This document shows, one piece after another, positions 16,714 to 35,850 of a DNA stretch of 64,000 bases. Position 1 is the stretch's first letter, and every line of letters starts with the position of its first letter. Origin of the DNA: Cladocopium goreaui. Its lineage: Eukaryota; Sar; Dinophyceae; Suessiales; Symbiodiniaceae. The notes beneath the pieces were generated by a model. It was not told where the DNA came from. It made no database searches and saw nothing but the letters and a program-made list of their open reading frames with translations. The stretch covers positions 87,501-151,500 of the forward strand of contig CAMXCT020006446.1 of assembly GCA_947184155.2 (NCBI GenBank), in the 5' to 3' direction. A program made the position numbers and the translations under genes.

Positions 16714-17560
16714 GTGACTGGTGACTGGGTGACTGGTCAATGTGTGTTTGCCACTACTAAATTGGGTTATAACTTATGACACACATTGACTGGGAAACAA
16801 CAGGGTTACTAAAGTTATTACTAAATTGGTTATTACTTATTGGTTATAACTTGTAACTGGGATTTAGGGTGAATATGATTTGGCCAATCTCGGATGGGTA
16901 GTGTACCGGGTAGTGCAATACGAAATTGTCGTATGCTATGGCTGGAAATACTTCCCAATGAGCTGCTATATCTGAAAACGCAGCGAATCTAAGATTAGCC
17001 ATCCATTATAGACAGGAAACATCTTGGTTGAATCGAGGGCTGAAAGAGTGGTTGACCCAGCACGTCCCAGCAAATTCTGGAATTTCATCAGCATTTGGCA
17101 TGTGTCAAGGCCAAGAAAGTCTCCGTTTAGGAACTACTTCATCCCATGGAAGGGACAGGGGATCCACATGGATCCACTCACACTGCGTCGGTACCGGAGG
17201 TTTCCTAAAATGGGGATACCCTAATATGGATGGTTTATTTCAGGCGAAATCCTATGGAAAAATGGATGAAATTGGGTACCCCCATGGATTGGAAAGCTCC
17301 GTATTCAGCTACAATATGTTCAACCAACTAGAATTTATGATGGATGCGTGCAGTTGAATGGGTTTATAAACACTTGGGGTGATCCACTTTGTTGATACTA
17401 AAGATGTAATGCTTTGGTGGTAGAACATGGGGCCCAACAGTGGTTTGCACTCGGTCGATCGATGATCAACATGACACTCTGAATGCATGGATGTGCACAA
17501 TCATGGGACTGGCACAGGCCCCCCTAGACAGGTACCGATAAAGTTGTTTATACCTTGAAA
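16714..17560. other. Intron-like stretch left of the retrotransposon
   Basis: No secure gene. Two overlapping open frames at 17024-17357 show no motif. Confidence 0.4.
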
Positions 17561-17721
17561 CATGGGTTTGTGGTGGAGCCCTTCCTGCATTTACCCTCTG
17601 GTAAACAAACATAGCTATTGAAAATTGTCATTTATAGTGGATTTATCCATTATACATAGTGATTTCCCATCAGTTATGTTAGTTTACCAGGGGGTAAAAC
17701 CACCATTTTTCCTATGGTTTT
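17561..17721. repeat. Left copy of the 161-bp repeat flanking the retrotransposon
   Basis: From CATGGGTTTGTGGTGG to CCTATGGTTTT. It matches 31198-31358 over its full 161 bases with two substitutions. It contains a complete B-family element (17591-17697) plus unique flanking DNA. The repeat is separated from the element's A1 repeat by GAAA. Confidence 0.9.
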
Positions 17722-17725
17722 GAAA

Positions 17726-17800
17726 TGTTGGAGCTTAGTGTAGCGTGCTCTAGGTTTTGACTGATCTGTAACAACCCGGTGTAGCTTGGGCTCAAGGTAG
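17726..17800 (+). repeat. A1, left split direct repeat
   Basis: It runs from TGTTGGAGCTTAG to GGGCTCAAGGTAG and is identical over 75 bases to A2 at 31015-31089. It ends 9 bases before the likely gag start codon (17810), so it may serve as promoter/5' leader. Its last bases, GGCTCAAG-GTAG, resemble the 3' end of the dinoflagellate spliced leader plus a donor. Confidence 0.92.
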
Positions 17801-17809
17801 GGGGGGGCC

Positions 17810-20800
17810 ATGGTCAAGGCAGCGCTAGGGGTCTTGTACCTCCTGGCTTCCGCCACGGCAAATGGTTGGGACTTGCTGCAGTGGGGACTGCAGTCAAATG
17901 CCACTCCCCAAACGGCTCAGGAAACAGTAAACGAACCAAGCAGCTTTCGCTGGTTCAGGGCCGACCGGGGCGGGAGATCCCGCCCGGCGCAAACTGGCCC
18001 TGAAACCTCCCAGGAGACACGGCACCGATCCTGGAGAGCGACCTTTGAATCCATTGGCAGATATTGGTGGGTGCGCATCTGGGTAGACTTGATCCTGCAA
18101 GTAGCAGAGAATGGGTTACACTACTGCGGGACACTCTGCGCATCGATCGGTTTAGCTGCCAAATGGAGTTACTGGTTGCTTACAGGGGTTGTGATCGTGT
18201 TCCTGTTACAGCTGCTGGTTTGGACATACACTTGGGTTGTCCATCCAGCCTGGGTCCACTCAAGGGCCCTCTGGCGATATTGCCAGGGCACTGGGACCTG
18301 GAGTGACGTCACTCGCCTACAAGGCCAAAGGCCCTACATCCCAACGTGGAGAGGGCCTGGTACCAGCAACCCCTGGACAGCACAGTATGTCCAGAGGGAG
18401 GTGCGAGGGAGGGGGTTGAACCAACGACCTCTAGATCTCTTGGTTGCGGACGGGGTAGCAGTAGCTCGCCTCCGACACGACACAATCAGAGGCCGCACGA
18501 ACAGGCATGGGTTTGTCTGCGCTTGCAATGAGGTACGTGCCTCCTCTCACCGGTACTTTAGGCACCATCTGGAAACTGCTAATTGCACCATCCATTTGTG
18601 TTCGCAAGACCCATGCACAGCACCTGAAGCGTCGCAAGTGCACATCAAGGCCAGTTCGGTCATACCCCAGGACCGGGAGATCGATCTGCAAGACCTTGCT
18701 GGAAGGGGGCCTTGGGGTAGGTGCGCGGTCCTTACCAGCTTTTGCGGGGCCTTGTGGTGCGGATGTTGCCGCAAGAGCATATCCCGGTGTGCCAAAATCT
18801 GGTGTTGGTGTGTTTCCTGCAGGAGGCGCCCGAGGCGGGTTTCCCGCCCGGGCGAAGGGCCGGAACATGGCCCGAGCGACCGGCATGACGACTCCGAAAC
18901 CGAGTCTGAAGCGGAAGTCGGACCCACGGACCAACCTTGCCAGGCGGATCAAATCGCTATTGATTCCAGTGGCAAAGTGACCTCGCTGGCCATGGAACCG
19001 TGTCGAGACATTGCGAGGGGTCAACCGGTTTGCCTCCTCAGTGCAGATAGGGCGAGCAGCTGCCTTGATGGGCTGCCTAGTCTTGCAGACGGCACCTCAG
19101 GATTCCACGCCTGTGAATATCACCGATCGATGTACCAGGGCTCGTTAGTCAACAGGGCGTGCGCGGTGCAAGGCTGCCTTAATTCAGCCACCAAGAGAAA
19201 GGAAGGCGTCCTCCTGTGCAGGTTACACAACGCCAAGGAAGAAAAACCACTTGGAAGCAAGACTACCCCACAAGCTACCACTAGGAGACAGCCCAGGGCA
19301 GGGAATGGATCAGAAGCGGTTCCTAGCACACTCAAGGCCGCTTCGCCTTTGGCAGTAGACAGCCAAGCAGCACCAAGCTCGAGGGCAGAACCAGCTGACC
19401 TAGCCGAGCTGATGGTGGAACTTCTCCAAGGGAAGGACTCGGAGTCAGCCTTCCGTTCTTTGGCAAGCTCTCGTGAAAAATGGCATGAGCCCGAATTCCG
19501 TGCAGATCTTAGCCGAATGGCGAAAGAATATATTGCTCGACAAGAAGAAAAAGGGGGGGAGCCCTCCAAAGCGTTGAGAGCCCTTAAACACTTTGTGGCA
19601 CCCACCCCCCTTGGGCAACACAGCCAAGACAGTGACCCCGTCGTTACGCTCCTAGAAGCCAGAGAGACCGTAGAAGATCTACGAACCAATACTCAGGATC
19701 AAGAGCCGCGACGCACTGTGGGCGACATGCCGGAGCCCCAGGTGACTATGGCACAAGCCCTCTTCCGACCAAAGGAGCCAGGGACCACAAGCTTCCCGGG
19801 GCCGGTATCCGGCCCGGGACATGGTGGCCTCGCCTCGAGGCTCGTACCGAGCCCGGGAGCGGTTGACCTCTTTCCCGGAACGGCCCATGCGTTGCCCCCT
19901 CTGTCAGGCCAAGGCTTGGGAGCCTTCAGGCCCTATCATGCCGGGGCTTATACTGACCCGGGACCGCCCGCCCTTGATGAGGCATCTAAGGCCCTGCAGA
20001 CTATTGCTAAAGCCATATCCTCCAAGGACGAACCCTCTGGTCAAGAACGGGGCAAGCTTTCTTCTATTGGCAAAACTGAAGAGCGCTTGGTCTTCTTGGC
20101 CCGGGGGTGTGACACCCTTACCGTGCACATCGGGGAGGCGACGGTAGGCAAAGACCTATATCATGCCCTAAGGTCTATGGCTTCGCAGAACAGACCTCTT
20201 CTCCGCGAGATTGGGTATCCGGTCAACATCAGCAACCGGATTGCCTTTGGAATTTCGTCCCTCAACATCGGGGGCAAGGGGTCCGTTCCGGACTACTGTC
20301 TCAGCGTGGCAGATTTTCCTCAAACATCAGAAGAAGAGTTTGACCTTTTCTCTCCTCCGGGGGATAACAAACTAGAAAAAAGGGGAAGAAACCCTACCAC
20401 ACTCACCGGTTGGTACAGGAATGCTTTGCGACAGGCCTGGGCCCTCGCGTGCGCTTTCGGGGCTGAATTTTACGCAAGCTGGGAGAGCGCTGCTGCGCAG
20501 CTCCTTAAGCTTGGTGAAGAATACACCCACGCTTGGCCCTTACAAGCCGTCCTCAGCACTTGGGAGGAACTCTGGGGCCGCTTCGTGGAAGAGCTCAGGG
20601 CCATCGACCGCAGCGCGCGACGGGAAATGCAAGATGAGAGTCCCAGTTTCGACAGACTGCGCTTCTTTGCCACTTCACCTGGGGCCGACGGGACGCCTTG
20701 GCTCAGGTTGCCACAGACCTTTGACTTGCAGGCCTTGGGAGAGTACTTCCAAACCGACATTGTCCCCCGTCAAAGGCGGCTTCTTGATCGAGCCTGCTGG

Positions 20801-22066
20801 AACATGGCATTCAAACGCCCGTCCCTAGCAGGGGGAAGGGCAGGTGAAAACGCGGATAACGCAGCGGGAAATTTGGGAGATGGCGCTAAAGCCGGAAACC
20901 AACACACTCCAAAACCCAATGCCCCAAAGGAAGTTGGTCAGCTGCTCGGGTCTCCGCTGACGCCCAAAGAAGTCAGCCGATCCATGGACCATCGACCCAA
21001 GGATCGAACAGGCAAATACCTTTGTTGGGACCATTTTTCCCACCGCAAATGCGCAAAAGGCAAAGACTGCCCCCATTCACATGTCGGGGGAGCCCCGAAG
21101 TGGGACACCCTCGATTGGAGCATTCAGATGCAGCTATTGCGCCGAGGCGGGCATCCCGCCCGGGCGAAGCTGAAAGCAGGTCAGGTCGACGCTGCAGTTG
21201 AAACTATTCGCAAGGAGCAGGCAGCGAAGCTGGCTACGAACGTACAGGAAGGAAAAAGGGCCAAAGAGCGAGAAACCTCTAAGAGGGCAGCCGGACCACC
21301 AGAAGACCCCCCTGAAAGCCACACACAATATCGTAACGATACGAGGGCTGGTTGGGTCTCTGCCCCCGGAGGGCTGAACAACTTCGCACCCACCGACATG
21401 GAGGCGCCACTTGCCTCACTGATGGGAGGGCAGGCAGAAACCAGTTGGACTGCCGATCATGCAAGCCCTGCCGCACGCACGGCCCAACTGGTCGTCCCGC
21501 ACGATCAGCCGGAGGCGGGGGAGAGGCTGAGACATATGCAGGTCATTGACGACACCTTGCAGCTCCCCGAAATGCCCCCGCATCTGGGCGTGTATCTTCG
21601 GAATCGGGTGCTCACTGACGCCGCTGCCCAGCCTCAGGCTGCTGATATCCAAAGGTATCTGGAAGAAGCGGTTCAGGAAGGAAGCGCAGAACTGGCCGCA
21701 GAAGCCACCGAGTTCTTACAAACCTATCCGGACTTGCGGGTAGGGTCTGTCTCGCACCGCGGGGAGCTCAGTGTCCTGTCTGCAGACAGCAATTTGGGGG
21801 CCGCTACCGGGACCTTCACCTGGCTCGATACCACTTATCACGTCTATGATTATGGTGACCAGTTGAGCCCAGCCCATTCAGGGCTGCTGCCGTGTGACGA
21901 GCCACACCCATCGCAGGAACCCAGGCAATGTTTTTCCTCCACGTGGCGGCTGGCCTGCTCACTAGAAAGTCCGGAACCCCGCCTACTTACGAGGAGACGT
22001 GTGTGCAGGCTCTGGCCCTTCAGCGCGAAATGCACCACTCCGCGGAAGAATGCCTTCAAGCCCTAG
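17810..22066 (+). CDS. Retrotransposon ORF1: gag-like protein with CCCH zinc finger and membrane segment
   Basis: 1418 codons. ATG in GCCATGG context nine bases after A1. The N-terminus (residues 4-16) is hydrophobic and signal-like; a strong transmembrane segment follows at about 121-143 (WLLTGVVIVFLLQLLVW). A Cys/His cluster spans about 435-475 (C-x2-H ... LCRLH). A folded, mainly helical region at about 766-998 is the probable capsid/gag core. A CCCH finger with C1072, C1081, C1087 and H1091 (C-x8-C-x5-C-x3-H) probably binds element RNA. The protein is long for a gag. It overlaps the next ORF (-1 frame) by 139 bases; a T5 run at 21931-21935 lies at the start of that overlap and could allow slippage. 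Five hairpin repeats lie inside it. The gag role is inferred from position and zinc finger. Confidence 0.8.
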   Translation: MVKAALGVLYLLASATANGWDLLQWGLQSNATPQTAQETVNEPSSFRWFRADRGGRSRPAQTGPETSQETRHRSWRATFESIGRYWWVRIWVDLILQVAENGLHYCGTLCASIGLAAKWSYWLLTGVVIVFLLQLLVWTYTWVVHPAWVHSRALWRYCQGTGTWSDVTRLQGQRPYIPTWRGPGTSNPWTAQYVQREVRGRGLNQRPLDLLVADGVAVARLRHDTIRGRTNRHGFVCACNEVRASSHRYFRHHLETANCTIHLCSQDPCTAPEASQVHIKASSVIPQDREIDLQDLAGRGPWGRCAVLTSFCGALWCGCCRKSISRCAKIWCWCVSCRRRPRRVSRPGEGPEHGPSDRHDDSETESEAEVGPTDQPCQADQIAIDSSGKVTSLAMEPCRDIARGQPVCLLSADRASSCLDGLPSLADGTSGFHACEYHRSMYQGSLVNRACAVQGCLNSATKRKEGVLLCRLHNAKEEKPLGSKTTPQATTRRQPRAGNGSEAVPSTLKAASPLAVDSQAAPSSRAEPADLAELMVELLQGKDSESAFRSLASSREKWHEPEFRADLSRMAKEYIARQEEKGGEPSKALRALKHFVAPTPLGQHSQDSDPVVTLLEARETVEDLRTNTQDQEPRRTVGDMPEPQVTMAQALFRPKEPGTTSFPGPVSGPGHGGLASRLVPSPGAVDLFPGTAHALPPLSGQGLGAFRPYHAGAYTDPGPPALDEASKALQTIAKAISSKDEPSGQERGKLSSIGKTEERLVFLARGCDTLTVHIGEATVGKDLYHALRSMASQNRPLLREIGYPVNISNRIAFGISSLNIGGKGSVPDYCLSVADFPQTSEEEFDLFSPPGDNKLEKRGRNPTTLTGWYRNALRQAWALACAFGAEFYASWESAAAQLLKLGEEYTHAWPLQAVLSTWEELWGRFVEELRAIDRSARREMQDESPSFDRLRFFATSPGADGTPWLRLPQTFDLQALGEYFQTDIVPRQRRLLDRACWNMAFKRPSLAGGRAGENADNAAGNLGDGAKAGNQHTPKPNAPKEVGQLLGSPLTPKEVSRSMDHRPKDRTGKYLCWDHFSHRKCAKGKDCPHSHVGGAPKWDTLDWSIQMQLLRRGGHPARAKLKAGQVDAAVETIRKEQAAKLATNVQEGKRAKERETSKRAAGPPEDPPESHTQYRNDTRAGWVSAPGGLNNFAPTDMEAPLASLMGGQAETSWTADHASPAARTAQLVVPHDQPEAGERLRHMQVIDDTLQLPEMPPHLGVYLRNRVLTDAAAQPQAADIQRYLEEAVQEGSAELAAEATEFLQTYPDLRVGSVSHRGELSVLSADSNLGAATGTFTWLDTTYHVYDYGDQLSPAHSGLLPCDEPHPSQEPRQCFSSTWRLACSLESPEPRLLTRRRVCRLWPFSAKCTTPRKNAFKP

Positions 22067-23394
22067 GGCCCGAGCCTGATCAGTGCACCCAAGCGGAGGA
22101 CGACCTGCGCACTTTCGCGCATGACGCTCTCTATTACGGCCATGATAAGGATTATCGATGTTTGGCTGCTCTTCCCCTGTCGGCCGCCGATGAGCGCACC
22201 TTTTGTCTCGTCCGCATGGACGACTGGCGCCGGGTCACTTGTGAGGTCATTCAAGGGGTTAGTTCCTGCGCCACACCTCGGAGCCTCGTTTGGCTTCTGG
22301 TCCACCAAGGTCACATGCGCCTGCTCGTTCCGCCCATGGACCGGGCTTTGCCTACCGGAGCCCGCGTAGTCTCGGCTGCCGGTTGGGAACTTCACCTAGA
22401 AGCGGCTCTGACGCACGGGGCACGCCTTCGCGCCCGTGCCGCCAAACCCTGCCCTCGGTGCTATTCGGATCCACACCGTCGCACCGGTCGTGCTGCCGGC
22501 GTTTTTGGCTTATATCCCTTTCCGTCCCCGCCACCCGTAGGCACTCGCACGGGGGCACCTGCTTGGGAAGACACCGAGCCCTCCCCGTCGCAATGGTCTA
22601 GGCAGGACTTGGCTTCCTGGCTTGGCGCCGATCTTCCTGATGGGACTCCCCCTGATCTCTTTGATCTGGCACCGCCCCCTTTCTCGGTATCTACCGGGGT
22701 TACGCAGGCCGGAGGCCTCGCTCTTCGTTTCCCGCTTGAAGACGACCTAGCCCTCCGGTGTGGAGCGACCCGCTCTAAGCTTCGAGCCGTTATCACTCTC
22801 CTTCGCCCACGACACCTTTGGCTTACCCTGCCCCTCCACCCCTTTGGAGGCTGGGGCCGTTTTGAATCGTCTCGCGGCAAGGATGCTTCCCCCGGCTCTG
22901 GATGTGGCCGCCGCCACCTGGACTTCCTCTTGGACCTAGGCCGCCTTCAATCCCTGTCCGGGGGCACCTTCAGCGTGCTCCACCATCTTACCAGCACCGC
23001 GTGGCGGGAACCGGCAGCTGTCGCTCTTTTGGCTTCTGTCCCACGGGCGCGGCTCCTGCTCGGCCCGACCCCTGGCCTTCCTTTTTGCCTTAAAACGACT
23101 CTGCCGTCTTTACTCCCTCTCACAACCCTCCCCTCTGGGACCGATCTCTCCACGTCCGTCGCCAAGGCCCTGCTCCCCGAGGCGCGTTTCGCGCCCGGGG
23201 CCGGCTTGCGGCGAGCCGGTCACGCTGCCCTTCGCCTCCCCTTTGGGGACGCCTCCGGGGCGCACCTGGGGCGGGGGGGGGGCGGGGGCTTCGCTGCTCT
23301 CCTCGCTCAGCAAAAGCGATGTCTATGGGCTTCGAGGGCCACTGCAGGACCCTCCTCCAAAGCAAACGGAGGAAGCGGCGGGCGCCTACCTTGA
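21928..23394 (+). CDS. Retrotransposon ORF2: unassigned pol-linker region
   Basis: 488 codons, -1 relative to ORF1, with its own ATG at 21928. It holds a Cys motif (PCPRCYSDPH, about residues 174-183) and a region around residues 290-400 (WLTLPLHPFGGWGRF ... LDFLLDLGRLQSLSGG ... STAWREP). This region has the shape of a methylase-like fold often found next to reverse transcriptase in dinoflagellate retroelements, but the expected catalytic-type Pro-Cys and Glu-x-Pro residues are not there, so I treat it as unassigned. It overlaps ORF3 by 152 bases; the overlap contains a G10 run (23273-23282), a likely site of slippage, mutation or sequencing error. A hairpin repeat lies at 23177. Confidence 0.7.
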   Translation: MFFLHVAAGLLTRKSGTPPTYEETCVQALALQREMHHSAEECLQALGPEPDQCTQAEDDLRTFAHDALYYGHDKDYRCLAALPLSAADERTFCLVRMDDWRRVTCEVIQGVSSCATPRSLVWLLVHQGHMRLLVPPMDRALPTGARVVSAAGWELHLEAALTHGARLRARAAKPCPRCYSDPHRRTGRAAGVFGLYPFPSPPPVGTRTGAPAWEDTEPSPSQWSRQDLASWLGADLPDGTPPDLFDLAPPPFSVSTGVTQAGGLALRFPLEDDLALRCGATRSKLRAVITLLRPRHLWLTLPLHPFGGWGRFESSRGKDASPGSGCGRRHLDFLLDLGRLQSLSGGTFSVLHHLTSTAWREPAAVALLASVPRARLLLGPTPGLPFCLKTTLPSLLPLTTLPSGTDLSTSVAKALLPEARFAPGAGLRRAGHAALRLPFGDASGAHLGRGGGGGFAALLAQQKRCLWASRATAGPSSKANGGSGGRLP

Positions 23395-26300
23395 TTTTTT
23401 CCAAGGCAAGGATTTTACGAAGGAAAACTTTGCCGAGGCGGCCCAACAGGGGAGCAGACTCCTGGAGGTCGCAGGAGGATGGAAGGAGGCGCTGAGGGCC
23501 ATTCGACGGCATTGGGTCCGGACACACGGGGATCACCTCGCAGGACTTCACAGCGACTTTTTCGAAGGATTGGTTCACCCAGCTATCTTGGAGAGGGCCA
23601 GGCACGTGGCCGTTTGGGGAGTCTCCGCAGAAGCAGATTTGGAAGAGACCCAAAGGGTGCAAAGCGCCCCCCATCCTAGCCTGAAGGAGCACATCGAAGA
23701 AGCCGCCAAGCAGCTTTGGGAGGACGCCGCCAAGGGGCGGTCCCTTCTTTGTTACGACAAAGGAGAAGGACTGGAAGGGGTGATTTCCGTCCCTATGGCC
23801 CGTGTACCAAAGATGAACCCAGACCGGAGTATCTCCGAAAAGGGCCGCATTATATGGGACGCCACCCCGATAAACAAGTACTGCCACAAAACACGCCACC
23901 CACCTGCGTTGCAACCACGTCACCAGGAAGTGGCTCGCGCGATCCTTTGGTGGAGGCTTCGGTTTCCCCGAATCAGGATCCTGCTCAGCAAAAAGGACGT
24001 GGCGGAGGCCTTCAAATGGATCCCCCTCAAATTGGAAGACGCCAAGCTCTTCGCAGCTGATGTCCCTGCTGAATTCACTCAGACTTCGGAGGGGACCACG
24101 TTGATTTATAGTTTTTTGACGTTTGGCTGGTGTGGTGCTCCGGGTGAGTACATGCACTTCGCCTGGGTTATCAAGTCAGCGCACGGGTCGTTCGCTCCGG
24201 ACAATCACCGGTGGGAAGATGACGTTCCCTTCCATTCCTTCGTTCTCATGGACGACACCGTTCTGATCGAGCCGGAGTTGGGCTTCAGGCCGCAGCTCTC
24301 TGTCGCCCTATCCGAATATGTCACAAAGGCCACCCTTGGGGAGGGCAGTATCAATGCTGCGAAGGACGCTCTCGAAGGTAGGCTTGAATGTCGGAAATTG
24401 ATATGGGGGCTGGTGTATGACACCCAGTCCTACACTCGCAGCCTCCCTGCGGCAAAGCTGGAGAAGGCGTACCATCTTTTGCACCTCCCTGATTTCGATA
24501 GTGGGTGTACCCATGTGCCTCTTCGTCTTGTCCAGGAGCTGAGGGGAAACCAGCAGTTTTGGCTGGCGGTGCTTCCAGGGCTCAGTCCCTACTTAGGGGC
24601 GACGAATGACCTCCTGGGCCCGGCTGACGAAAGGGGGTTCGCGAAACCTAGAGGCACAGTGGCACAGCAGAAGGCCATTTGGGCACGTTTTTGGGAATCA
24701 ATCGAGCTCCAAAGACTGCTCGTGGATGCCACTTCACAATGGGAAGTCCGATTTACCCACCCTCTGACTTCAGCCCTCACTGTCCGGGAGCTCCTTTCCT
24801 TCCCAGGAATGAGTCAAAAAGTTGTCTGGGCGTCAGGAGATGCAACCCCCCACAAGTTGGCGGCCGTGGATTGGGAAGCCAACGTGGCGGTAGTGGAGCC
24901 GGCGGAATCCGTGTGGGAACGCCTCCGGCGGTTTTGCGCCGAGCACGACCCGGAGCTTGCAGCTGCGGAGGAGGAGACGTCGACCGTCACCGAGGCTCGT
25001 TCTGAGCCCGGAGACGGGTTGATGATTTCGCTTGCTGAGCTTTTGGCCGTCGTGTCGTTGGCGTGTCTGAGATGGAAGTCCTGGAAGGGAAAAATTGTCA
25101 TCTACGCCGGAGACAACAGTAATGTTATCTCATGGCTAGCCAAAAGACACGCAGGACCACCAGCAGCTCGGTTCCTTCTACAACTTCTGGCGGCACTTGA
25201 GACAGTTGGAGGCTTCCGCTTGCACGCCGAATATATCCGGACCTATCACAATCAAGTCGCGGACGCTCTCACGCGGGAAGAAGAAGGGCCGGTTCTATCA
25301 GCTTGGAACCTGGAACGAAAGGATTTCTCCGAAGTCCTCCTTGCCACGCTGGACAGGGGGTGGACCCGTCGGGCCCTGCTATGGGATGGAATGGACCATG
25401 AGGACCAAGCCTCCGCCCTGCACATGGGGTTGAGACGACATCCGGAAGGCCCGCAGGGGCTTCGATTCCCATTGCGGCCAGGCATTGTCTGCTGTGAGCT
25501 TGGCCCGGAGCCCCGCGTGTACCACTTGGAGTTGCTGTCCAGAGGTTTGAAAATGCAGGAGCCCGGCCTATTGGCTGACGAAGAGGCGGTCTGCGTTTTC
25601 TATTGTGTCGGAAGGGACGAGGTTGCCACCGCGTCCAGCCTTGCCCAACAAGCCCAAGGTCTCCAGCCCAAGGGGATATGGGCCGACTCCATCTCCTCTC
25701 TTGGCCTGAAAAGCGCTCAGGCTAGGTTACAAGAGAATGGATGGCAAACCCGGGTGGTACTCGTCAGCGGCCGGACACTCCAAGATCAGTGTTGGTGGAA
25801 GCGATGGATTCTCCTTGCCGTCCCTAGGGGCGCGCAGATGCCAGACCTTCCGTGTTTGACCGCGGATGACGAGCCCGACACTGCCCCGCTGCACACATAC
25901 CCCACGGAGTGGCTTCTGGAGGATCAAAAAGTCCCGGGTGACCTCTGGGTCAGGGGAAGACTAAAACTTGATACCTCTATCCCGTATCTAGGACAGGCAA
26001 CCCCTAAGCCCAGGGGCTCGGTGTATGTGGAGGGTAGTGTTCGTAGGCACGTTTGGGACCCCTATAAACCACTTCCCCAACTCCATCACAACTCCGGCAA
26101 TCCCCAAAGTAAGGATTCGCTTTTGTTGCTAGGGAAGGGACCCGAGGGACCTGCGGCGAGGTATATCACGCCCGGGGAAATTTTTAAATTGTTGGGTGGG
26201 AGGGTTGAGTTGTTACCCCCCAATGTGTTGGCTGAAAGTTTACCCCTGCTGTCCATTTTGGCTACCCCTCGTAGTTTGGCTCTAACGGCTGGGAAGTGGG

Positions 26301-27928
26301 CTAGTTCGCTGGGCACGACCGGGCCGCGCGACCCCGCCGCAACCAATCAAGTGCTGACCGAACCGAGCTTGGCAAACTCGACCCAATCCGAGGTTCAAGA
26401 CGAACCCGGACCGGCTGCGGGGGCCGAGGCTCGCTCCGAGCCCGGTCAACTCCCAACCGACAGAAAGGTCGGGATTTGCGAATTGCCTTGGGAATCCGCA
26501 GCGCGGGAGGCGCTCATGGTTGGAGGGAAGCACAAAAAGCAGAGGAAGAGTGGCAAAAAGATGGAATGGCAGGAGGAGCTGTCAAAAGCCATGTCTCGAT
26601 GCCTCAGGCACGAAGCAGAATGTATAACAGAAGACGGCTGGGTGGAACTGCCCGACCTCCTGGAATACCTCCGTAAGCGCCTGAACTGGCAGGAGAAGTA
26701 TTTCACGGAGCAGGTCATCCGGGACGCCGTGGAGGAGAACTTTAAGCAGCGGTTTGTTGTCAGAGAAAGCGACGGCCGCCCATACATGGCGGCATGGTCG
26801 GGCCACACCATCGACGGTGTCTATGGGCCGGGGGCAAGGGTAGCTCCCGAAGACGTCCCCCCGACACTGGTGCATGGAACGTACCGTCGCCATGTGAAGT
26901 CGATCCAGGAAAATGGGCTCCGGGGCGACAGACGGATGGCTCATCTGGTCAATCCAGATCAGGCGTCGGGCAAGTGGAGGTCGGACTTGGAGGTGAAGAT
27001 TCCCGTCTCTACTAAGGCTGCGATGGAGTCCGGGGTCGTCTTTTACGTCACGGGGAATTCTGTGTGGCTTGCCAGCGGAACAATCCCGCCGGCAGCCTTG
27101 GGCGATGTCTCGGACTGGGACACAGCCGAGTTTTGGTACGCTGCAGAGGGACCCAAAAAGAGCCTGAAAGGGGCGTCCGCCAGCAGTCAGGTGGGGCCCG
27201 TGCCGCAGCACCGGGGGGAGCCCAGCTCCAGCAATCAAGGCAAGAGAGGTCGGCGTCGGGACGAGTGGGTGGAGGAAGAAGAGCCACGCAATTCTGCAAA
27301 GCTCAACCTCGCTGCCTACCGCTCGATAGCCTGGCCCCCGTCCAAAGCTCAGGAGAAAGACCCCAGGGAAGAGCTCGCCCGAACTGCGTCCGACCTGGCG
27401 GCGGCGGTAGCTGGCTTGGCCTGCCAAGAAGGCGAAGAGGAGGTCAACGTTGATCCGGATACTCTGAAGGCGGACGTCGTTGTTATCTCGGAGCCTGACT
27501 GGGGCGCCTCCGACCCGGAAATCCAGGAGGCGCTCGTGCCAATGACAAAGCTGGAGGAATCCCTCGAGGTCAAAACCGAGGCTCGGTCCGAGCCCGGGGA
27601 GACCTTACAGGAAGCTGGCCCCGCTGCTCCCGCGACCAAGTTCGAAGAGTTGCCTGTTGCCAAAGCCGAGGCTCGATTCGAGCCCGGTGAGGCCCTGCAG
27701 GAGGCTGCCCCGGGCGTCAAAGCCGAAGAAGAACTTCGCCCATCTGCCCCTAATCCAGCTCAGGCGGCCGGTCCTGGGGAAGCCCCGGCTGCTGACCCGC
27801 AGCCCACGCCCGCTGCTGGGAGTGTTAAAGGGGAACCCGATGCCCGTGCAGAAGCGCCGGTGAGCCCGAAGAGTTCCGATGCCTGCATTCCATCCAAGAT
27901 GTCCGACAGGCCGAGCGGGCCGAAGTGA
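23243..27928 (+). CDS. Retrotransposon ORF3: reverse transcriptase, RNase H and Tpt1-like RNA 2'-phosphotransferase domain
   Basis: 1561 codons; the frame opens on TTG and has no early ATG, so it is probably reached from ORF2 by frameshift (+1) near the G10 run. RT: motif A KKDVAEAF with D252, motif C LMDD with D337-D338. RNase H: D533 (SGDA), E599 (LAELLA), D624 (AGDN), D674 (VADAL). Tpt1/KptA-like domain about 1113-1285: LSKAMSRCLRH (R1122, H1123), SGHTI (H1188), LVHGTYRRH (H1211-G-T), KWRSDLEV (R1246), NSVWLASG (N1272). Tpt1 removes the splice-junction 2'-phosphate from RNA using NAD+. Of the four key residues known in yeast Tpt1 (Arg-His-Arg-Arg), three are conserved; the middle Arg of the usual RAxQGH motif is Ala (A1183). 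Four EARSEPG-like peptides are translated hairpins. A single TGA separates it from ORF4 in the same frame. Confidence 0.92.
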   Translation: MGTPPGRTWGGGGAGASLLSSLSKSDVYGLRGPLQDPPPKQTEEAAGAYLDFFQGKDFTKENFAEAAQQGSRLLEVAGGWKEALRAIRRHWVRTHGDHLAGLHSDFFEGLVHPAILERARHVAVWGVSAEADLEETQRVQSAPHPSLKEHIEEAAKQLWEDAAKGRSLLCYDKGEGLEGVISVPMARVPKMNPDRSISEKGRIIWDATPINKYCHKTRHPPALQPRHQEVARAILWWRLRFPRIRILLSKKDVAEAFKWIPLKLEDAKLFAADVPAEFTQTSEGTTLIYSFLTFGWCGAPGEYMHFAWVIKSAHGSFAPDNHRWEDDVPFHSFVLMDDTVLIEPELGFRPQLSVALSEYVTKATLGEGSINAAKDALEGRLECRKLIWGLVYDTQSYTRSLPAAKLEKAYHLLHLPDFDSGCTHVPLRLVQELRGNQQFWLAVLPGLSPYLGATNDLLGPADERGFAKPRGTVAQQKAIWARFWESIELQRLLVDATSQWEVRFTHPLTSALTVRELLSFPGMSQKVVWASGDATPHKLAAVDWEANVAVVEPAESVWERLRRFCAEHDPELAAAEEETSTVTEARSEPGDGLMISLAELLAVVSLACLRWKSWKGKIVIYAGDNSNVISWLAKRHAGPPAARFLLQLLAALETVGGFRLHAEYIRTYHNQVADALTREEEGPVLSAWNLERKDFSEVLLATLDRGWTRRALLWDGMDHEDQASALHMGLRRHPEGPQGLRFPLRPGIVCCELGPEPRVYHLELLSRGLKMQEPGLLADEEAVCVFYCVGRDEVATASSLAQQAQGLQPKGIWADSISSLGLKSAQARLQENGWQTRVVLVSGRTLQDQCWWKRWILLAVPRGAQMPDLPCLTADDEPDTAPLHTYPTEWLLEDQKVPGDLWVRGRLKLDTSIPYLGQATPKPRGSVYVEGSVRRHVWDPYKPLPQLHHNSGNPQSKDSLLLLGKGPEGPAARYITPGEIFKLLGGRVELLPPNVLAESLPLLSILATPRSLALTAGKWASSLGTTGPRDPAATNQVLTEPSLANSTQSEVQDEPGPAAGAEARSEPGQLPTDRKVGICELPWESAAREALMVGGKHKKQRKSGKKMEWQEELSKAMSRCLRHEAECITEDGWVELPDLLEYLRKRLNWQEKYFTEQVIRDAVEENFKQRFVVRESDGRPYMAAWSGHTIDGVYGPGARVAPEDVPPTLVHGTYRRHVKSIQENGLRGDRRMAHLVNPDQASGKWRSDLEVKIPVSTKAAMESGVVFYVTGNSVWLASGTIPPAALGDVSDWDTAEFWYAAEGPKKSLKGASASSQVGPVPQHRGEPSSSNQGKRGRRRDEWVEEEEPRNSAKLNLAAYRSIAWPPSKAQEKDPREELARTASDLAAAVAGLACQEGEEEVNVDPDTLKADVVVISEPDWGASDPEIQEALVPMTKLEESLEVKTEARSEPGETLQEAGPAAPATKFEELPVAKAEARFEPGEALQEAAPGVKAEEELRPSAPNPAQAAGPGEAPAADPQPTPAAGSVKGEPDARAEAPVSPKSSDACIPSKMSDRPSGPK

Positions 27929-28039
27929 GAGACAGATCGCTGTAAGGAGGAAGCAGATGGCGGAGAGGGCGCAGGACCTTCCCGAGCCAGGGATGACCCC
28001 GCTCCTGCTAGGGACCGGGCCCTGATCCCCAAGGGAGGG
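27926..28039 (+). other. Single in-frame TGA joining ORF3 and ORF4
   Basis: TGA at 27926-27928 is the only stop between ORF3 and ORF4; the 37 codons from 27929 to 28039 are open in the same frame. ORF4 has no ATG near its start (first listed codon TTG). This fits either stop-codon readthrough or a point mutation in a once continuous polyprotein. Confidence 0.8.
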
Positions 28040-30094
28040 TTGAAGTTGGGATCCGGGAAGCTCAGGTTGCTGCAGGAAATCGCTCGGGCTGACGAAGCGA
28101 ACTGGCAGAACCTCCAAGAATCCCTCGCCAAAGCGGAAGAGGATGGGTCGACCAAACAAGATTTGATAGACGACCTGTCAAGGCTTACTGCGCAGCGAAA
28201 AGAAGCTGCCGAAGGGATACAGCAAAGTTTGGAAACCGAGATCCAACGCATCAAAGATGCAGAGGATGAAGACAAAAGTTATCTCGAAGCCTTGGACGCT
28301 CAGGGAAGTTACATGCGAGAAGTGGAAAGGAGAAATCCGGTGCGGCCTTCTAAAGCCGTCAAAGTCCTCAAGTCTGCCCGGCTCGACCTCGAGATTGAAG
28401 CAGGCATCAGCGTTTGGGTGGCTAGGCGCCGGGAGAAAGGCAGACAGAGGGCACGTATGCACCGTGAGAGAACTCAGGGAGGCGAAGCTAATCCCTCCGC
28501 TGAACCTCTCGAGTCCCCTGAGGCAGCAGCAGCCGCACGAAAGGAAGCCGCGCGAAAGGAAATTCAAGACTTCCGAGCCTCACTGCTGCAGGCCGATGGC
28601 CAACCAAGGAAATTTCGAAGAGCCCCAGACTCGCAAAGACGAAAGGAAGCGAAGAGACTGAGGCGCCAAACTCGTCGAAATGACGACGCTAGTAGAGACA
28701 CCAACCACGCCATCGCGCACGCCTACCCATTAGGTGGAGAAGTGGTGGTGAGGCAGACTACGCTGTGGCCTGCAGGGCAAGGTGTCAGGCCGAGTCTACC
28801 AATCGAACTGTTTGGAATCTTGGTAGCAGCTTCCTTGTTCCTTGCCGTGGGAGCCTGCCTTGCTATCCGGCGATGGGTACACGCCCGCCCTTCCATGGGG
28901 CAAGCAAATTCCCGAGGCCCTGTTTCGGGCCCGGGAAAGAACAACAAGATGCCGAATCCGCTCCAAGGCCCAACGTCGGGTCAAATATCGTCTGAGCGCA
29001 CTCATACCGAAATTCTGCCCGACGCCAGCCGAGGCTTGGTTTCGAGCCCGGTGACCCCCGCCCCGCCCCCTGCGGCGGAGCCAACCTACGGGCGTCGCAT
29101 CCGGCTAGAAGCCGGGACCGTTGATCCGGAAGGAATCCCGCGGTGGCATCGTTCCGAGTGTCTTAGGCCAGGACCCAGTCGATGGGTGGAGCCGTGCAAA
29201 GATTGTGCCGGCCAACCGGGGTATGTGCAGCCTTCCGGAGCCGCCCACGTGACTCTGAGCGGCGAGAGGTGGCATCAGGAAGGGTGCGGTCACATCCGGG
29301 GCCGCAGACAGATCCGCTACGAACGGTGTCTGTGTCCCCCGGGTGAGGCTAGCACGACGGTGGCCCGGCGAAATCCCCGACAAGGTGTTCGACAGCGGCG
29401 AGTCGACGACGCCAATCGGGACACCAACCATGCCATCGCCCACCTCTTCTGTGGAGAATTTGGGCTCCTCATCCTGGCCTTGTTATACCTCTTCGGAGTC
29501 CTGCATGCTTGTTTGCGGGCCGGGAGCGAAGAGATTTCACGGGAGCAAAAAGACGAGAGACGCGTGGGAGGCTCCACTACCAGGCGGGTACGCTTCTCGC
29601 CTTATTTGGAAAGCTTGGAAGAAGACATCCACCCGAAGGAGGCGCCGACCATTCAGCAGGGGGTGAAGAACAGACCCTGTCGCAGCCCGAAGGCAGTCAG
29701 AGATCTCCTTGGGCACAAGACCCCACAGCTTGGCTTACCCCTGAAGAATCGGCAAGACTATCAACAGGAAGCTGTCAATGTTGCTTTGGACAGGCTAGCC
29801 CTGACGACTCGTCGGACGTATGCCGCGCAGTTGAAATGGTGGCGCCTGTTTTGTGCTCGGCGCCAGGTGCACTGGCTCCTGACTGGGGTGCCGGCGGACG
29901 AAGATCTCATCATTGACTATTTGCTTCACTGTGCCGTCAACGAACAGCGTGCCCCGGGAACTTTGAAACTGCGTCTCGCTGCCGTCCGAAGCATCCATGT
30001 GACGCTGGGGCTGCCAGATCCCTTAGAAGGAAGAAACCGGGTAGCGATGGCCCTGGCAGGCCTGAGAAGGCGGTACAAGACGCCGCTCCCGTGA
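28040..30094 (+). CDS. Retrotransposon ORF4: coiled coil, two membrane-span modules, Cys/His pairs, recombinase N-domain
   Basis: 684 codons. Residues about 8-110 are charged and helical, probably coiled coil. The peptide DDA(S/N)RDTNHAIAH occurs twice (from 215 and from 456), each time followed by a hydrophobic span (about 255-279 and 470-492). Between them are two WH-x3-C ... C-x2-C or C-x-C modules (W369-H370-C374 and W411-H412), possibly zinc-binding. From about 577 the sequence is the SAM-like core-binding domain of a tyrosine recombinase (LTTRRTYAAQLKWW ... APGTLKLRLAAVRSIH). The ORF ends in TGA at 30092-30094, within the overlap GTGA with ORF5, whose catalytic domain continues this fold in the -1 frame. 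Hairpins lie at 28912 and 29029. The membrane spans have no counterpart in known DIRS recombinases that I recall. Confidence 0.85.
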   Translation: MKLGSGKLRLLQEIARADEANWQNLQESLAKAEEDGSTKQDLIDDLSRLTAQRKEAAEGIQQSLETEIQRIKDAEDEDKSYLEALDAQGSYMREVERRNPVRPSKAVKVLKSARLDLEIEAGISVWVARRREKGRQRARMHRERTQGGEANPSAEPLESPEAAAAARKEAARKEIQDFRASLLQADGQPRKFRRAPDSQRRKEAKRLRRQTRRNDDASRDTNHAIAHAYPLGGEVVVRQTTLWPAGQGVRPSLPIELFGILVAASLFLAVGACLAIRRWVHARPSMGQANSRGPVSGPGKNNKMPNPLQGPTSGQISSERTHTEILPDASRGLVSSPVTPAPPPAAEPTYGRRIRLEAGTVDPEGIPRWHRSECLRPGPSRWVEPCKDCAGQPGYVQPSGAAHVTLSGERWHQEGCGHIRGRRQIRYERCLCPPGEASTTVARRNPRQGVRQRRVDDANRDTNHAIAHLFCGEFGLLILALLYLFGVLHACLRAGSEEISREQKDERRVGGSTTRRVRFSPYLESLEEDIHPKEAPTIQQGVKNRPCRSPKAVRDLLGHKTPQLGLPLKNRQDYQQEAVNVALDRLALTTRRTYAAQLKWWRLFCARRQVHWLLTGVPADEDLIIDYLLHCAVNEQRAPGTLKLRLAAVRSIHVTLGLPDPLEGRNRVAMALAGLRRRYKTPLP

Positions 30095-30762
30095 CCCCCC
30101 GTATGTTGCGTTGGCTGGAGGAACATCTCCGAGGCCCTGTTTCGGGCCCGGAGGGTCCTATCCTCTGGGCTGCCTTGTGCCTGGGGTTCTTCTTTTTGCT
30201 CAGGGCCTCAGAATTTTTACCCTTGGGGTACATCCCATTTTCCCGTCAATTAAAGGGAAGACAAGTACTCCTTTTCAGCAAAGGGGAGCAATGCGACCTC
30301 CGCAACCTGGGGGAAGCCGATGAGATCCGGCTCCAGCTGAACGGTAGCAAAACCAACTATAATCTGGAGACTCACCGCAACCACTACAAGACCGGTGAGG
30401 CCGTCTGCCCTGTCTTGGCGGTCAGACAGTTCTTCCAGAAATACCCGAATCGATACTTGGGCGGCGTGGAGGCAGATGAGCCACTATTCCGAACACCGGA
30501 AGGCTGGGATATCCCACGCGAGGCCGTGCAGATGCTCCTGCGCCGTGCGGCCGAAGCCTGTGGTGTGGCGGGCCATCTAGGCTCGCACTCTCTTCGTTTT
30601 GGGGGCGCTTCGGCTCTCTGGGCCGCCTATAAAGACGCCTCAGTGGTCAGGCGCTACGGGCGTTGGGCTTCCGACGCCTTCCACACTTATTTGTGGGAGG
30701 ACCGCGAATACTCGCGCGGTATGTCGGAGTCCATGATCAAGACAAGCCTTACGCCTACGTAG
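30091..30762 (+). CDS. Retrotransposon ORF5: tyrosine recombinase catalytic domain
   Basis: 223 codons, -1 to ORF4 and overlapping it at GTGA. Catalytic residues of the phage-integrase family are all visible: R38 in LLRASEF, H166-x-x-R169 in SHSLRFGG, W192 in GRWAS, and the nucleophile Y200 in FHTYLWE. The enzyme would cut and rejoin DNA strands through a 3'-phosphotyrosine link, inserting a circular copy of the element. It has no obvious ATG of its own at the start (GTG in the track; first ATG at 30103), so it is probably made by -1 slippage from ORF4 (CCG to CCC ahead of the stop), or ORF4/5 is one gene broken by a one-base loss. A hairpin repeat lies at 30129-30151. Confidence 0.92.
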   Translation: MTPRMLRWLEEHLRGPVSGPEGPILWAALCLGFFFLLRASEFLPLGYIPFSRQLKGRQVLLFSKGEQCDLRNLGEADEIRLQLNGSKTNYNLETHRNHYKTGEAVCPVLAVRQFFQKYPNRYLGGVEADEPLFRTPEGWDIPREAVQMLLRRAAEACGVAGHLGSHSLRFGGASALWAAYKDASVVRRYGRWASDAFHTYLWEDREYSRGMSESMIKTSLTPT

Positions 30763-30780
30763 CTATGCCCGTCCACGCAG

Positions 30781-30900
30781 TTTTGATACATCTGCCAACC
30801 GAGGCGTGTTTCACGCCCGGTAGAAAGGCAACCACTCCAGTTTTGATACATCTGCCAACCGAGGCGTGTTTCACGCCCGGTAGAAAGGCAACCACTCCAG
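30781..30900 (+). repeat. Perfect 60-bp tandem duplication with hairpin
   Basis: Two identical units (30781-30840 and 30841-30900), each carrying a perfect copy of the hairpin with a GTG/CAC stem triplet and TTT loop. It lies just after the recombinase stop, in the 3' non-coding region. The last bases of the sequence just before unit 1 (ACGCAG) do not match, so it is exactly two copies. Confidence 0.95.
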
Positions 30901-30925
30901 CTATACAGTGGCAAGGGAGGGGTGC

Positions 30926-31014
30926 GAGCCCGGAGGGCAAAGACCTTTTCAGTGCCTACGCGCGCAAAAGTGCGTTCTTGCTGTTGAGTGGGGGGTTGTA
31001 GGTTAGGTCCAAAC
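30926..31014 (+). repeat. B1, internal split direct repeat
   Basis: It runs from GAGCCCGGAGGGCAAAGACC to TTAGGTCCAAAC and is identical over 89 bases to B2 (31109-31197). It touches A2 directly at 31014/31015. Its first bases (GAGCCCGG) equal the 3' arm of the hairpin family. Confidence 0.92.
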
Positions 31015-31089
31015 TGTTGGAGCTTAGTGTAGCGTGCTCTAGGTTTTGACTGATCTGTAACAACCCGGTGTAGCTTGGGCTCAAGGTAG
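31015..31089 (+). repeat. A2, internal split direct repeat
   Basis: Identical to A1 over 75 bases. Its end GGGCTCAAGG (31077-31086) is the exact reverse complement of CCTTGAGCCC at 31105-31114, which spans the A2-B2 spacer and the start of B2, giving a 10-bp stem with an 18-nt C-rich loop. Confidence 0.92.
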
Positions 31090-31108
31090 CCCACCCCCCC
31101 TCCCCCTT

Positions 31109-31197
31109 GAGCCCGGAGGGCAAAGACCTTTTCAGTGCCTACGCGCGCAAAAGTGCGTTCTTGCTGTTGAGTGGGGGGTTGTAGGTTAGGTCCAAAC
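31109..31197 (+). repeat. B2, right split direct repeat and element end
   Basis: Identical to B1. It ends ...GGTCCAAAC and is followed immediately by the right copy of the 161-bp flanking repeat. A C-rich spacer of 19 bases (31090-31108) separates it from A2. Confidence 0.92.
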
Positions 31198-31358
31198 CAT
31201 GGGTTTGTGGTGGAGCCCTTCCTGCATTTACCCTCCGGTAAACAAACATAGCTATTGAAAATGGTCATTTATAGTGGATTTATCCATTATACATAGTGAT
31301 TTCCCATCAGTTATGTTAGTTTACCAGGGGGTAAAACCACCATTTTTCCTATGGTTTT
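31198..31358. repeat. Right copy of the 161-bp repeat flanking the retrotransposon
   Basis: Same length as the left copy at 17561-17721, with two substitutions (CTCT to CTCC in the B element end; ATTG to ATGG). It contains a B element at 31228-31334. Beyond it the sequence continues CCTATGAATTTCCC, unlike the left side, so the repeat ends here. Confidence 0.9.
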
Positions 31359-32285: not shown

Positions 32286-32859
32286 CAACCCTTTCGCACG
32301 AAATGAGGGTCGATCGTCAAAAACTGAGGAAAAATTGCGATTTTACTTGTGCCCGAGCAACCCTTTCGCACGAAATGAGGGTCGATCGTCAAAAACTGAG
32401 GAAAAATTGCGATTTTACTTGTCCGGAGCAACCCTTTCGCACGAAATGAGGGTCGATCGTCAAAAACCGAGGAAAAATTGCGATTTTACTTGTGCCGGAG
32501 CAACCCTTTCGCACGAAATGAGGGTCGATCGTCAAAAACTGAGGAAAAATTGCGATTTTACTTGTCCTAAAGCAACCCTTTCGCACGAAATGAGGGTCGA
32601 TCGTCAAAAACTGCGGAAAAATTGCGATTTTACTTGTCCTAAAGCAACCCTTTCGCACGAAATGAGGGTCGATCGTCAAAAACTGAGGAAAAATTGCGAT
32701 TTTACTTGTCCTAAAGCAACCCTTTCGCACGAAATGAGGGTCGATCGTCAAAAACTGAAGAAAAATTGCGATTTTACTTGTGCCGGAGCAACCCTTTCGC
32801 ACGAAATGAGGGTCGATCGTCAAAAACTGAGGTAAAATTGCGATTTTACTTGTGCCGGA
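32286..32859. repeat. 72-bp minisatellite, about eight copies
   Basis: Unit starts CAACCCTTTCGCACGAAATG and contains GGGTCGATCGTC; copies begin at 32286, 32358, 32429, 32501, 32573, 32645, 32717 and 32789. Because 72 is a multiple of three, both strands stay open (24-residue repeats). There is no start context or codon bias to suggest a protein. Small differences between units (GCCGGAG versus CCTAAAG) form sub-families. Confidence 0.95.
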
Positions 32860-34462: not shown

Positions 34463-35112
34463 TGTCTCCATACTAACAACAGAAGACTCTGCTCCTCTAC
34501 GCTCTCGGGCCATCCGTCGTCTAGTTGTTTAACCACCAACTAGATTAATAATGATTAATAACTTAATAACCTACAGATACAACTGAAGTTGAGGGATGAA
34601 CATCCATTTTTTATTAAAGCGTTCGCGCCATTTGATGTTTGCTGAGCTAAGAGTACCAGGGTTGCCAGTGATCCACCAAGAATCCATTCCCAGTTGAAAC
34701 ACACCCGGTGATGTGGATCCCCGAAAAAAGGGCACTTTTTGTTGCTGGGAAACTGTGTTTCTTTAAAATCCATTGGTAATAGATTTATCCATGCAAGTAA
34801 ACAATCCATTAATAAATATCATTTTAAATATCATTTAGAAACCTTGTTCCCAGTATTTTTGTTTGGTCATGGGATTTCCCAGAACCAAGGACTTCATCTC
34901 AATCCATTTTTGCATAGAAAATCTCACATCACTCATGAACATGTGAAAAAAACATATGTGTGTTCCAAAAAATCGCTTCACGTGGAAATGGATCAAAACC
35001 TATGTTTTTCCATTACCAATCCATTTACCAATCATGGTTTGATCACATATCGCTTCACATTTTTGGGGCCCCATGGTGTTCACCAGGTCCCATGGATCCC
35101 ATGACCTCCGAG
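34463..35112. other. Non-coding stretch
   Basis: A remnant of an A-element right end (AACCACCAACTAG at 34530-34542) lies next to the minisatellite. Otherwise nothing recognised. Confidence 0.4.
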
Positions 35113-35213
35113 GTTAGCCAAGGCCAACTTGGATGAAGGCAACTGGCAGGCCTGCTTGGCACAGGTGCAAGAGCTCCAAGAAGGTCGGGAGGTGGCTGTG
35201 GAAGAGCTCCAGG
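35113..35213 (+). CDS. Exon-like island, PPR-like
   Basis: It follows CCTCCGAG and reads LAKANLDEGNWQACLAQVQE and on through LQEGREVAVEELQ, helical, with GNWQAxL as in PPR repeats of dinoflagellates. The frame continues into the minisatellite, which starts directly at its 3' end (donor perhaps GATAGG). Confidence 0.4.
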
Positions 35214-35850
35214 ATAGGGAAATGATGGAGAAATGATGGGGACATGATGGAGAAATGATCGGGAAATGCTGGGGACATGATGGGGAAATGATGAAGAAAA
35301 GCTGGGGAAATGATGGAGAAATGATTGGGAAATGATGGGGAAATGATGGAGAAACGATGGATAAATGATTGGGAAATGATGGGGAAATGATGGAGAAACG
35401 ATGGAGAAATGATGGGGAAATGATGGGGAAAAAATTGGGAAATGATGGGGAAATGATGGGGAAATGATTGGTAAATGATAGGGAAATGATGGAGAAATGA
35501 TGGAGAAATGATGGAGAAAATGATGGGGAAATGATGGAGAAACGATGGAGAAATGATGGGAAATGATGGGGAAGTGCTGGAGAAATGCTGGGGAAATGAT
35601 GGGGAAATGATGGGGAAATGATGGAGATGGGGAAATGATGGGGAAATGATGGGGACATGGTAGAGAAATGATTGGGAAATGATGGGGAAATGATGGAGAT
35701 GGGGAAATTATGGGGAAATGATGGGGAAATGATGGGGACATGGTAGAGAAATGATGGGGAAATGATGGAGAAATGATTGGGAAATGATGGGGAAATGATG
35801 GAGAAATGATCGGGAAATGATGGGGAAACGATGGGGAAATGATAGGGAAA
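35214..35850. repeat. 11-bp minisatellite (GATGGGGAAAT)n
   Basis: About 55 units with GATGGAGAAAT and GATTGGGAAAT variants. It is open on the minus strand (HHFPIISPSFP repeats), which is an artefact of period and composition. Confidence 0.95.

Follow-up and report, generated by a model that had tools for sequence, protein, structure and literature searches.

A covarying bulged hairpin dispersed along a retrotransposon of the dinoflagellate Cladocopium goreaui

The described systems closest to the element considered here are Ngaro/DIRS-like retrotransposons, among them SymbioDIRS-Dnmt3 of Symbiodinium (de Mendoza et al. 2018, PMC5890265) and the Ngaro elements of Cafeteria (PMC8547959), in which split direct repeats flank the coding region in the order A-coding-B-A-B. 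We analyzed a 64,000-nucleotide (nt) stretch of Cladocopium goreaui contig CAMXCT020006446.1, hereafter the window, which contains a whole copy of a retrotransposon with the same repeat arrangement. The element resembles the Ngaro/DIRS-like group in having a putative reverse transcriptase (RT) that Pfam models miss, a probable tyrosine recombinase and homologues in dinoflagellates (PMC5890265, PMC8547959). SymbioDIRS carries a cytosine methyltransferase, whereas the window element carries a Tpt1/KptA domain in its pol open reading frame (ORF) and a dispersed family of hairpins; the word hairpin is absent from the main text of the article on SymbioDIRS-Dnmt3 (PMC5890265).

Small repeated or folded structures of a comparable kind are described elsewhere. 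The packaging signals of phage MS2 (PMC4751978) resemble the hairpins here in being numerous stem-loops of similar form that share a recognition motif and are spread along one genome, but the MS2 signals are described as degenerate, whereas the element hairpins are near-identical over deep lineages, lie in a retrotransposon and have only a candidate reader. Yeast mitochondrial GC clusters such as GC42 (PMC4478555) are likewise short GC-rich palindromes with a constrained structure, but they show presence/absence variation and target-site marks, neither of which was seen for the element hairpins. Integron attC sites (PMC3053210) resemble the element in pairing a folded palindrome that has extrahelical base(s) with a tyrosine recombinase; however, attC sites recombine gene cassettes and have two one-sided extrahelical bases, whereas the element hairpins have one bulge and lie at interior sites. 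Such hairpins in a dinoflagellate retrotransposon were not described in the titles and abstract beginnings of the open-access literature searched, and Rfam covariance models gave no match at the gathering threshold and none at E values up to 1.

A hairpin family with one orientation, a constrained loop and compensated stems

The hairpin is a 9-bp stem, mostly closed by G-C pairs, with three base pairs, one bulged base on the 5′ arm and six further pairs. A strict pattern matched 14 times in the window, always on the + strand and between 17965 and 30880, and allowing one change added 19835-19856, where T replaces the first C. When 14 of 15 features were required, the element gave 15 matches on the + strand and none on the − strand, and the other 50.5 kb of the window gave none on either strand; 200 dinucleotide-preserving shuffles of the element gave a mean of 0.025 + strand matches and a maximum of 1. 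These 15 are the clear copies of a preliminary description of this DNA, which had counted sixteen. Its degenerate sixteenth copy, taken here as the next-best copy of the scan (19941-19962), is likely conserved coding sequence and no hairpin, judging from comparison with two sister lineages, and two weaker copies that it lacked, at 22415-22437 and 26388-26409, appear real when sister copies are compared. As had been described, hairpins use codon phases 1, 2 and 3 and occur in every ORF as well as in the 3′ non-coding part, where the copies at 30799 and 30859 lie.

Element copies in the 1.17-Gb host genome were grouped into lineages A (the window copy, C2112, C3624 and C3201), B (C251 and C2623), C (C2057, C192, C3446 and C5339), D (C680) and E (C601). 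DNA identity to A in BLAST-alignable parts is about 74-85% for B and about 66-71% for C. The D pol protein is 44.7% identical to that of A over residues 71-950 and 32.5% over 953-1404. For the E pol protein the figure is 41.1% over 358-1561, and two shorter stretches reach 56% and 68%. All five lineages carry hairpins, often at homologous sites, even where identity over the main pol segments is as low as about 41-45%. All 17 window sites are present in the three other full-length A copies, the 22415 site occupies the same codons from A to E (with a non-standard stem in E), and each of the five lineages has a hairpin after the stop of the recombinase ORF; in C1105 it follows the recombinase match, where the frame stops early. 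The window copy of 22415 has one G-to-A change, and its sister copies are intact with an A-T outer pair, while 26388 is present in A and B (with a weakened outer pair in B) and lost in C. In the linker between RT and RNase H, the E hairpin is displaced upstream by about ten codons relative to the A site, an offset that suggests slow turnover.

Aligned hairpins are more conserved than their surroundings, with 305/335 identical positions between A and B (91%, 15 sites) vs 1051/1430 (73.5%) in the ±50-nt flanks, and 232/290 between A and C (80%, 13 sites) vs 648/1175 (55.1%). Where letters do change, the partner tends to follow. The outer C-G pair at 21142 is A-T in C through two synonymous changes that compensate each other, the outer stem at 24990 has gone from GGC/GCC to GGA/TCC in C, also compensated, and other sites have the variants GAC/GTC (B) and CTG/CAG (D). 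The outer bases are thus not fixed, contrary to what had been claimed. At 22415 the peptide differs (HGARLRAR or PEAWYRAR) and the fold stays.

For 23 sequences aligned at A-defined sites the covariation score was 0.370 vs 0.109 ± 0.021 for shuffled alignments, and for 39 distinct 22-nt hairpins it was 0.313 vs 0.090 ± 0.014; neither observed score was reached by any of 500 shuffles, in agreement with the earlier statement that the inner pairs change together. The 23-sequence alignment, which omits 4-nt-loop sites and C sites with a lost hairpin and leans towards structure to that extent, is the fairer test, as the 39-hairpin set was mostly picked by a scan that rewarded pairing and required the bulge. 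Within that larger set 97.4% of cells were paired, compared with at most 52% in every slid register. The number of pairs changed on both sides was reached by 38/500 shuffles (23 sequences) and 6/500 (39 hairpins) and is therefore the weaker measure. Breaks among orthologues comprise A.G and C.A at the outermost pair, the 22415 copy of the window itself and the weakened 28912 in B. Together these results strongly support the conclusion that the hairpin is a selected nucleic-acid structure; since the fold is kept while letters and encoded proteins change, the element seems to need the fold.

Fifty-four distinct hairpins were tabulated, leaving aside 19941 (A and A2), one C match with a 5-nt loop, two non-standard stems in E, and 26388. 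The bulge was A in 40, G in 8, T in 4 and C in 2. The last base of the loop was a pyrimidine in 54/54 (T 47, C 7), and the base before it was A or T in 52/54. The loop, which the preliminary description had called unconstrained, thus follows a rule, to which 26388, with an AGA loop in the 3-nt register, is an exception. At a threshold of 14 features the ratio of sense to antisense matches was 15/0 in A, 12/0 in B, 10/0 in C, 8/0 in D and 6/0 in E, with the bulge on the sense 5′ arm; at 13 features antisense matches appeared once in A and twice in B.

As far as tested, the hairpin is associated in this genome with a single retrotransposon family, and its reported confinement to the element, seen in the window, is matched by a genome-wide excess over the reversed control on contigs that carry the element or are assigned to it (element contigs). 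The 23-nt form of the pattern matched 86 times vs 39 for the reversed control. Element contigs held 48 of these matches, namely 34 on fetched contigs, 1 on C35 (a 3-kb locus with two hairpins) and 13 on contigs assigned by identical hairpin strings (C410, C578, C630, C674, C710, C910, C945, C3927, C5563 and C5831), an assignment by shared strings that is partly circular; the 38 matches elsewhere are about at the control level of 39. The 22-nt form gave 143 matches vs 46, and among the 100 of these 143 listed, 78 lay on element contigs, 53 of them fetched and 25 assigned in the same way (C35, C410, C578, C630, C674, C710, C910, C945, C1895 and C1918), and 22 elsewhere. Among the same listed matches, a pyrimidine ended the loop in 78/78 on element contigs and 12/22 off them, and A or T preceded it in 69/78 and 9/22, respectively. 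C680, C601 and C1105 were chosen by hairpin-pattern matches alone, and divergent element copies are encoded there. The hairpin is thus useful as a tag.

Proteins found by homology, not by hairpins, gave a similar picture: 184 hairpin-encodable matches (180 distinct, as 4 were counted under two loop lengths) occurred in 85 of 97 homologous proteins, and the controls gave 0-3 in ten shuffles and 2 in reversed proteins. Peptides compatible with hairpin 1 lie near residues 45-69 of many homologues, and a Polarella protein gave no match in the strict test and three hairpin-like stretches in the loose one. No relatives were found in viral and prokaryotic sequence collections. Six IMG/VR pattern matches were single matches in GC-rich contigs and were taken as chance; their model scores arise by construction.

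Possible roles of the hairpins

Several properties bear on which molecule the hairpins act in. Among 486 pair cells, G.U occurred 13 times and A.C 4 times; T on the 5′ arm stood opposite G 12 times, and C there stood opposite A 2 times. The preference for G.U over A.C points to the sense RNA as the acting molecule. Hairpin clusters in A have a mean spacing of 1169 nt with a coefficient of variation of 0.27 (P 0.0001), and the coefficients in B, C, D and E were 0.34, 0.26, 0.45 and 0.28 (P 0.0009, 0.0002, 0.035 and 0.003), with copies less than 130 nt apart merged and the ends of B-E set by hand. This quasi-regular spacing, the loop rule and the preference for G.U go beyond the preliminary description. 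When folded in ±100 nt of native context, the hairpins were predicted to form with a mean pair probability of at least 0.8 at 11/17 window sites and at 24/28 sites tried in C, D and E.

We propose that the hairpins are a selected, dispersed array of protein-binding RNA sites, probably read by the CCCH-finger ORF1 and used for packaging or genome organization, a proposal to which we give about an even chance. The hairpins would be cis-acting structures of the element's genomic RNA, kept by selection and arranged roughly evenly, with one hairpin for every 1.2 kb or so of the window copy. Their shared stem, bulge and loop form suggests one recognition unit for one RNA-binding protein, and the use of one strand, the fixed bulge, the loop rule, the tolerance of G.U and the even spacing fit a sense RNA that is read by a protein. 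ORF1, with its Gag-like position and conserved CCCH finger, would be the likeliest reader; it could bind many sites per RNA, and such binding may lead to selective packaging or orderly condensation of the 13.5-kb genome, much as dispersed packaging signals serve the coat proteins of small RNA viruses. We infer, then, that sense RNA acts, that a protein reads it, that ORF1 is this reader and that packaging is the use; among the uses suggested earlier, packaging of the RNA or recognition by proteins that the element encodes is the likeliest. A more tentative version is that the quasi-periodic array marks the whole genomic RNA, so that a Gag-like protein counts, packages or folds it at regular steps, which we regard as possible but doubtful. 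We know of no genome-wide hairpin ruler described for retrotransposons, and, to our knowledge, how RNA is chosen for packaging has been worked out in few retrotransposons, none of them of the tyrosine-recombinase type. A covarying, repeated hairpin and a candidate reader in the same element make the packaging question directly testable.

A number of observations weigh against a packaging array read by ORF1. Of the 15 A sites, four lack a hairpin at the corresponding position of C (one of the four has a hairpin close by), which means that individual sites are dispensable. Predicted pairing in context fell below 0.8 at 6/17 window sites, with the lowest value, 0.28, at 30859. The G.U and A.C counts are small and non-independent, and seven other cells of the 486 are mismatched, mostly at the outermost pair. 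Lineages A, B and C share ancestry, so the spacing tests are not five independent ones, and regular spacing may come in part from where the proteins tolerate the peptide. Some off-element pattern matches are fully paired, 3/38 for the 23-nt form and 4/22 for the 22-nt form among the matches listed. The CCCH motif was not found in the pieces of E, where its place falls at the border of two fetched pieces. Finally, an AlphaFold model of ORF1 residues 722-1110 was weak (predicted local distance difference test, pLDDT, 63.6) and gave no confident match to capsid or nucleoprotein folds, so that position and the zinc finger are the grounds for the term Gag-like.

All of the structural evidence is also compatible with any other role at the RNA level, such as translation pacing or frameshifting, stability, Tpt1-linked processing or recognition by a host reader, and such a role would suit an element whose five ORFs overlap or abut with changes of frame and which has a Tpt1/KptA domain. 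The hairpins lie, however, in all ORFs and the 3′ non-coding part, beyond the ORF junctions, and 8-17 near-identical copies per lineage are many for one regulatory site; we consider a role of this kind unlikely, though worth keeping in view. It is improbable that the hairpins are folded single-strand DNA sites for the element's tyrosine recombinase, with the extrahelical base setting the strand as in attC. The element probably encodes such an enzyme, and a strand-specific bulge in a palindrome of variable stem does resemble attC, but attC sites have two extrahelical bases about 6 nt apart (PMC3053210), compared with one bulge in a 9-bp, 22-nt hairpin here. In addition, the hairpins lie away from the element ends (repeats A1 and B1-A2-B2), recombination at internal sites would presumably delete parts of the element, and the preference for G.U over A.C favors the sense strand over first-strand cDNA.

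The preliminary description had left open whether the structure was selected or self-copying, likened it to small mobile hairpins such as GC clusters and Rickettsia palindromic elements, and proposed a search for insertion polymorphism. Covariation and the synonymous compensation at 21142 bear out selection; self-copying did not fare as well. New sites do occur in some lineages, with the E site L040:3377 opposite a 7-residue gap in A, and the extra A copy at 30859 arose by a 60-nt tandem duplication. However, among 251 flank-conserved comparisons between homologous proteins, in which relatives overlap and counts are non-independent, 147 had a hairpin in both, 64 aligned without one, 40 were partly gapped and none was cleanly absent, all hairpins have a single orientation, the excess is found with the element, and sites are common to deep lineages, at about 41-45% identity. 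Hairpins that spread by jumping into the retrotransposon are thus quite improbable. A mutational origin without function, in which template switching perfects palindromes or gene conversion acts between sites, would explain paired changes in one step. Palindrome repair should remove the bulge, yet all 15 clear copies, found by a scan that allowed its absence, have it, as do the hairpins of B and C where the sites align (the bulge was a condition of the scans of other lineages, which add nothing here); unlinked sites also share the outer stem and loop rule, and G.U intermediates exist, so such an origin is very improbable. Most copies lie within ORFs, as would be expected if selection acted on a repeated peptide, but we reject this reading as close to impossible, given that the copies use three codon phases and yield differing peptides, that one is read in two frames and that others lie in non-coding sequence. 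The hairpins are a clean case of a nucleic-acid structure that is kept in all three frames while the protein sequence changes.

The host element and its surroundings

Coordinates are collected in Table 1. C2112, C3624 and C3201 align with the window copy from 17722-17726 to 31197-31200 at 98.9-99.5% identity, and the alignments end there. The window element has split direct repeats in the order A1-ORFs-B1A2B2; 7 further copies likewise begin and end with the A repeat in their terminal regions, and the B repeats were checked in the window. BLAST found no long target-site duplication in the flanks of 7 other copies, short ones being beyond its reach; the C3446 flanks have 27-30-nt matches. Outside the window element lies a 164-nt direct repeat, 98% identical, at 17558-17721 and 31195-31358. 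It is not a long terminal repeat, because it lies outside the element ends common to other copies, and it could be an unusual target duplication or reflect insertion into a tandem host repeat.

Table 1. Features of the window element (positions count from the first base of the window)
Feature	Position	Strand	Remarks
Whole retrotransposon copy, lineage A	17723..31197	+	about 13.5 kb; ends shared with same-lineage copies
Terminal repeat A1	17723..17800	+	98.7% identical to 31012-31089
ORF1	17801..22066	+	Gag-like by position; signal/transmembrane-like N-terminus; CCCH zinc finger
Hairpin 1	17965..17987	+	4-nt loop; also in B and C
Hairpin 2	18830..18851	+	GGG/CCC in A; GAG/CTC in B, C, D
Hairpin 3	19796..19817	+	in A, B; absent in C
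Hairpin 4	19835..19856	+	in A, B, C
CCCH zinc-finger motif CWDHFSHRKCAKGKDCPHSH in ORF1	21023..21082	+	candidate hairpin reader
Hairpin 5	21142..21163	+	outer C-G to A-T in C by two synonymous changes
ORF2	21898..23394	+	
Hairpin 6	22415..22437	+	same codons in A2, B, C, D; non-standard stem in E; not in preliminary description
ORF3	22940..27928	+	putative reverse transcriptase with FVLMDD motif; RNase H-like; Tpt1/KptA RNA 2′-phosphotransferase domain
Hairpin 7	23177..23198	+	ORF2/ORF3 overlap; read in two frames
Hairpin 8	24990..25011	+	RT-RNase H linker; GGC/GCC to GGA/TCC in C
Hairpin 9	26388..26409	+	T-A not C-G at pair 6; not in preliminary description
Hairpin 10	26424..26445	+	
Hairpin 11	27576..27597	+	
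Hairpin 12	27666..27687	+	
ORF4	27929..30094	+	two transmembrane-like segments
Hairpin 13	28912..28934	+	weakened in B; lost in C
Hairpin 14	29029..29051	+	in A, B, C
ORF5	29917..30762	+	putative tyrosine recombinase, C-terminal part (HxxR...Y)
Hairpin 15	30129..30151	+	inside recombinase ORF; CC/GG to TC/GA in C
Hairpin 16	30799..30820	+	3′ non-coding
Hairpin 17	30859..30880	+	3′ non-coding; within 60-nt tandem duplicate of hairpin 16
Repeat B1	30926..31014	+	100% identical to 31109-31197
Repeat A2	31012..31089	+	partner of terminal repeat A1
Repeat B2	31109..31197	+	partner of repeat B1

We found 49 homologues for ORF1 residues 620-1150, and the CCCH finger recurs in A2, B, C and D, at one locus apiece, while the consensus of 26 aligned sequences also has it. 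The start of ORF1 (17810-18260) is signal-peptide-like with a transmembrane-like segment, and hydropathy suggests transmembrane-like segments in ORF4 at about 28811-28867 and 29459-29515; both are unusual for a retrotransposon. ORF3 has the FVLMDD motif without a Pfam match for RT or RNase H and without a PDB sequence match, and one of its homologues is named RNase H type-1-domain-containing by its source. The Tpt1/KptA domain (E 2.7e-26) covers protein residues 1212-1380 and is present in many homologues; no description of this domain within a retrotransposon pol ORF turned up in the material searched. ORF5 matched Pfam Phage_integrase at E 0.015, which does not pass the cut-off, and its HxxR and Y motifs are present, suggesting that the element probably encodes a tyrosine recombinase. 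Homologues with a named organism come from Symbiodinium, Durusdinium and Polarella.

The ORFs over 21898-30762 overlap or abut with frames changing, and ORF3 and ORF4 share a frame with one stop between them. Long fused homologues exist, which would be consistent with either recoding or decay. Residues 723-793 of the homologous predicted protein P0022 form a KH RNA-binding domain, which may reflect a gene-model fusion. An apparently 5′-truncated and internally deleted element copy at G000:C1019:159400-166000 retains the 3′ hairpins. Elsewhere in the window, dispersed host repeats of about 34-77 nt with the ends CCACCAACCAG and CTGGTTGGTGG occur in several copies between 10946 and 39112 and resemble miniature inverted-repeat transposable elements, and long tandem arrays with 16-nt and 11-nt units occupy 32855-34500 and 35146-35620.

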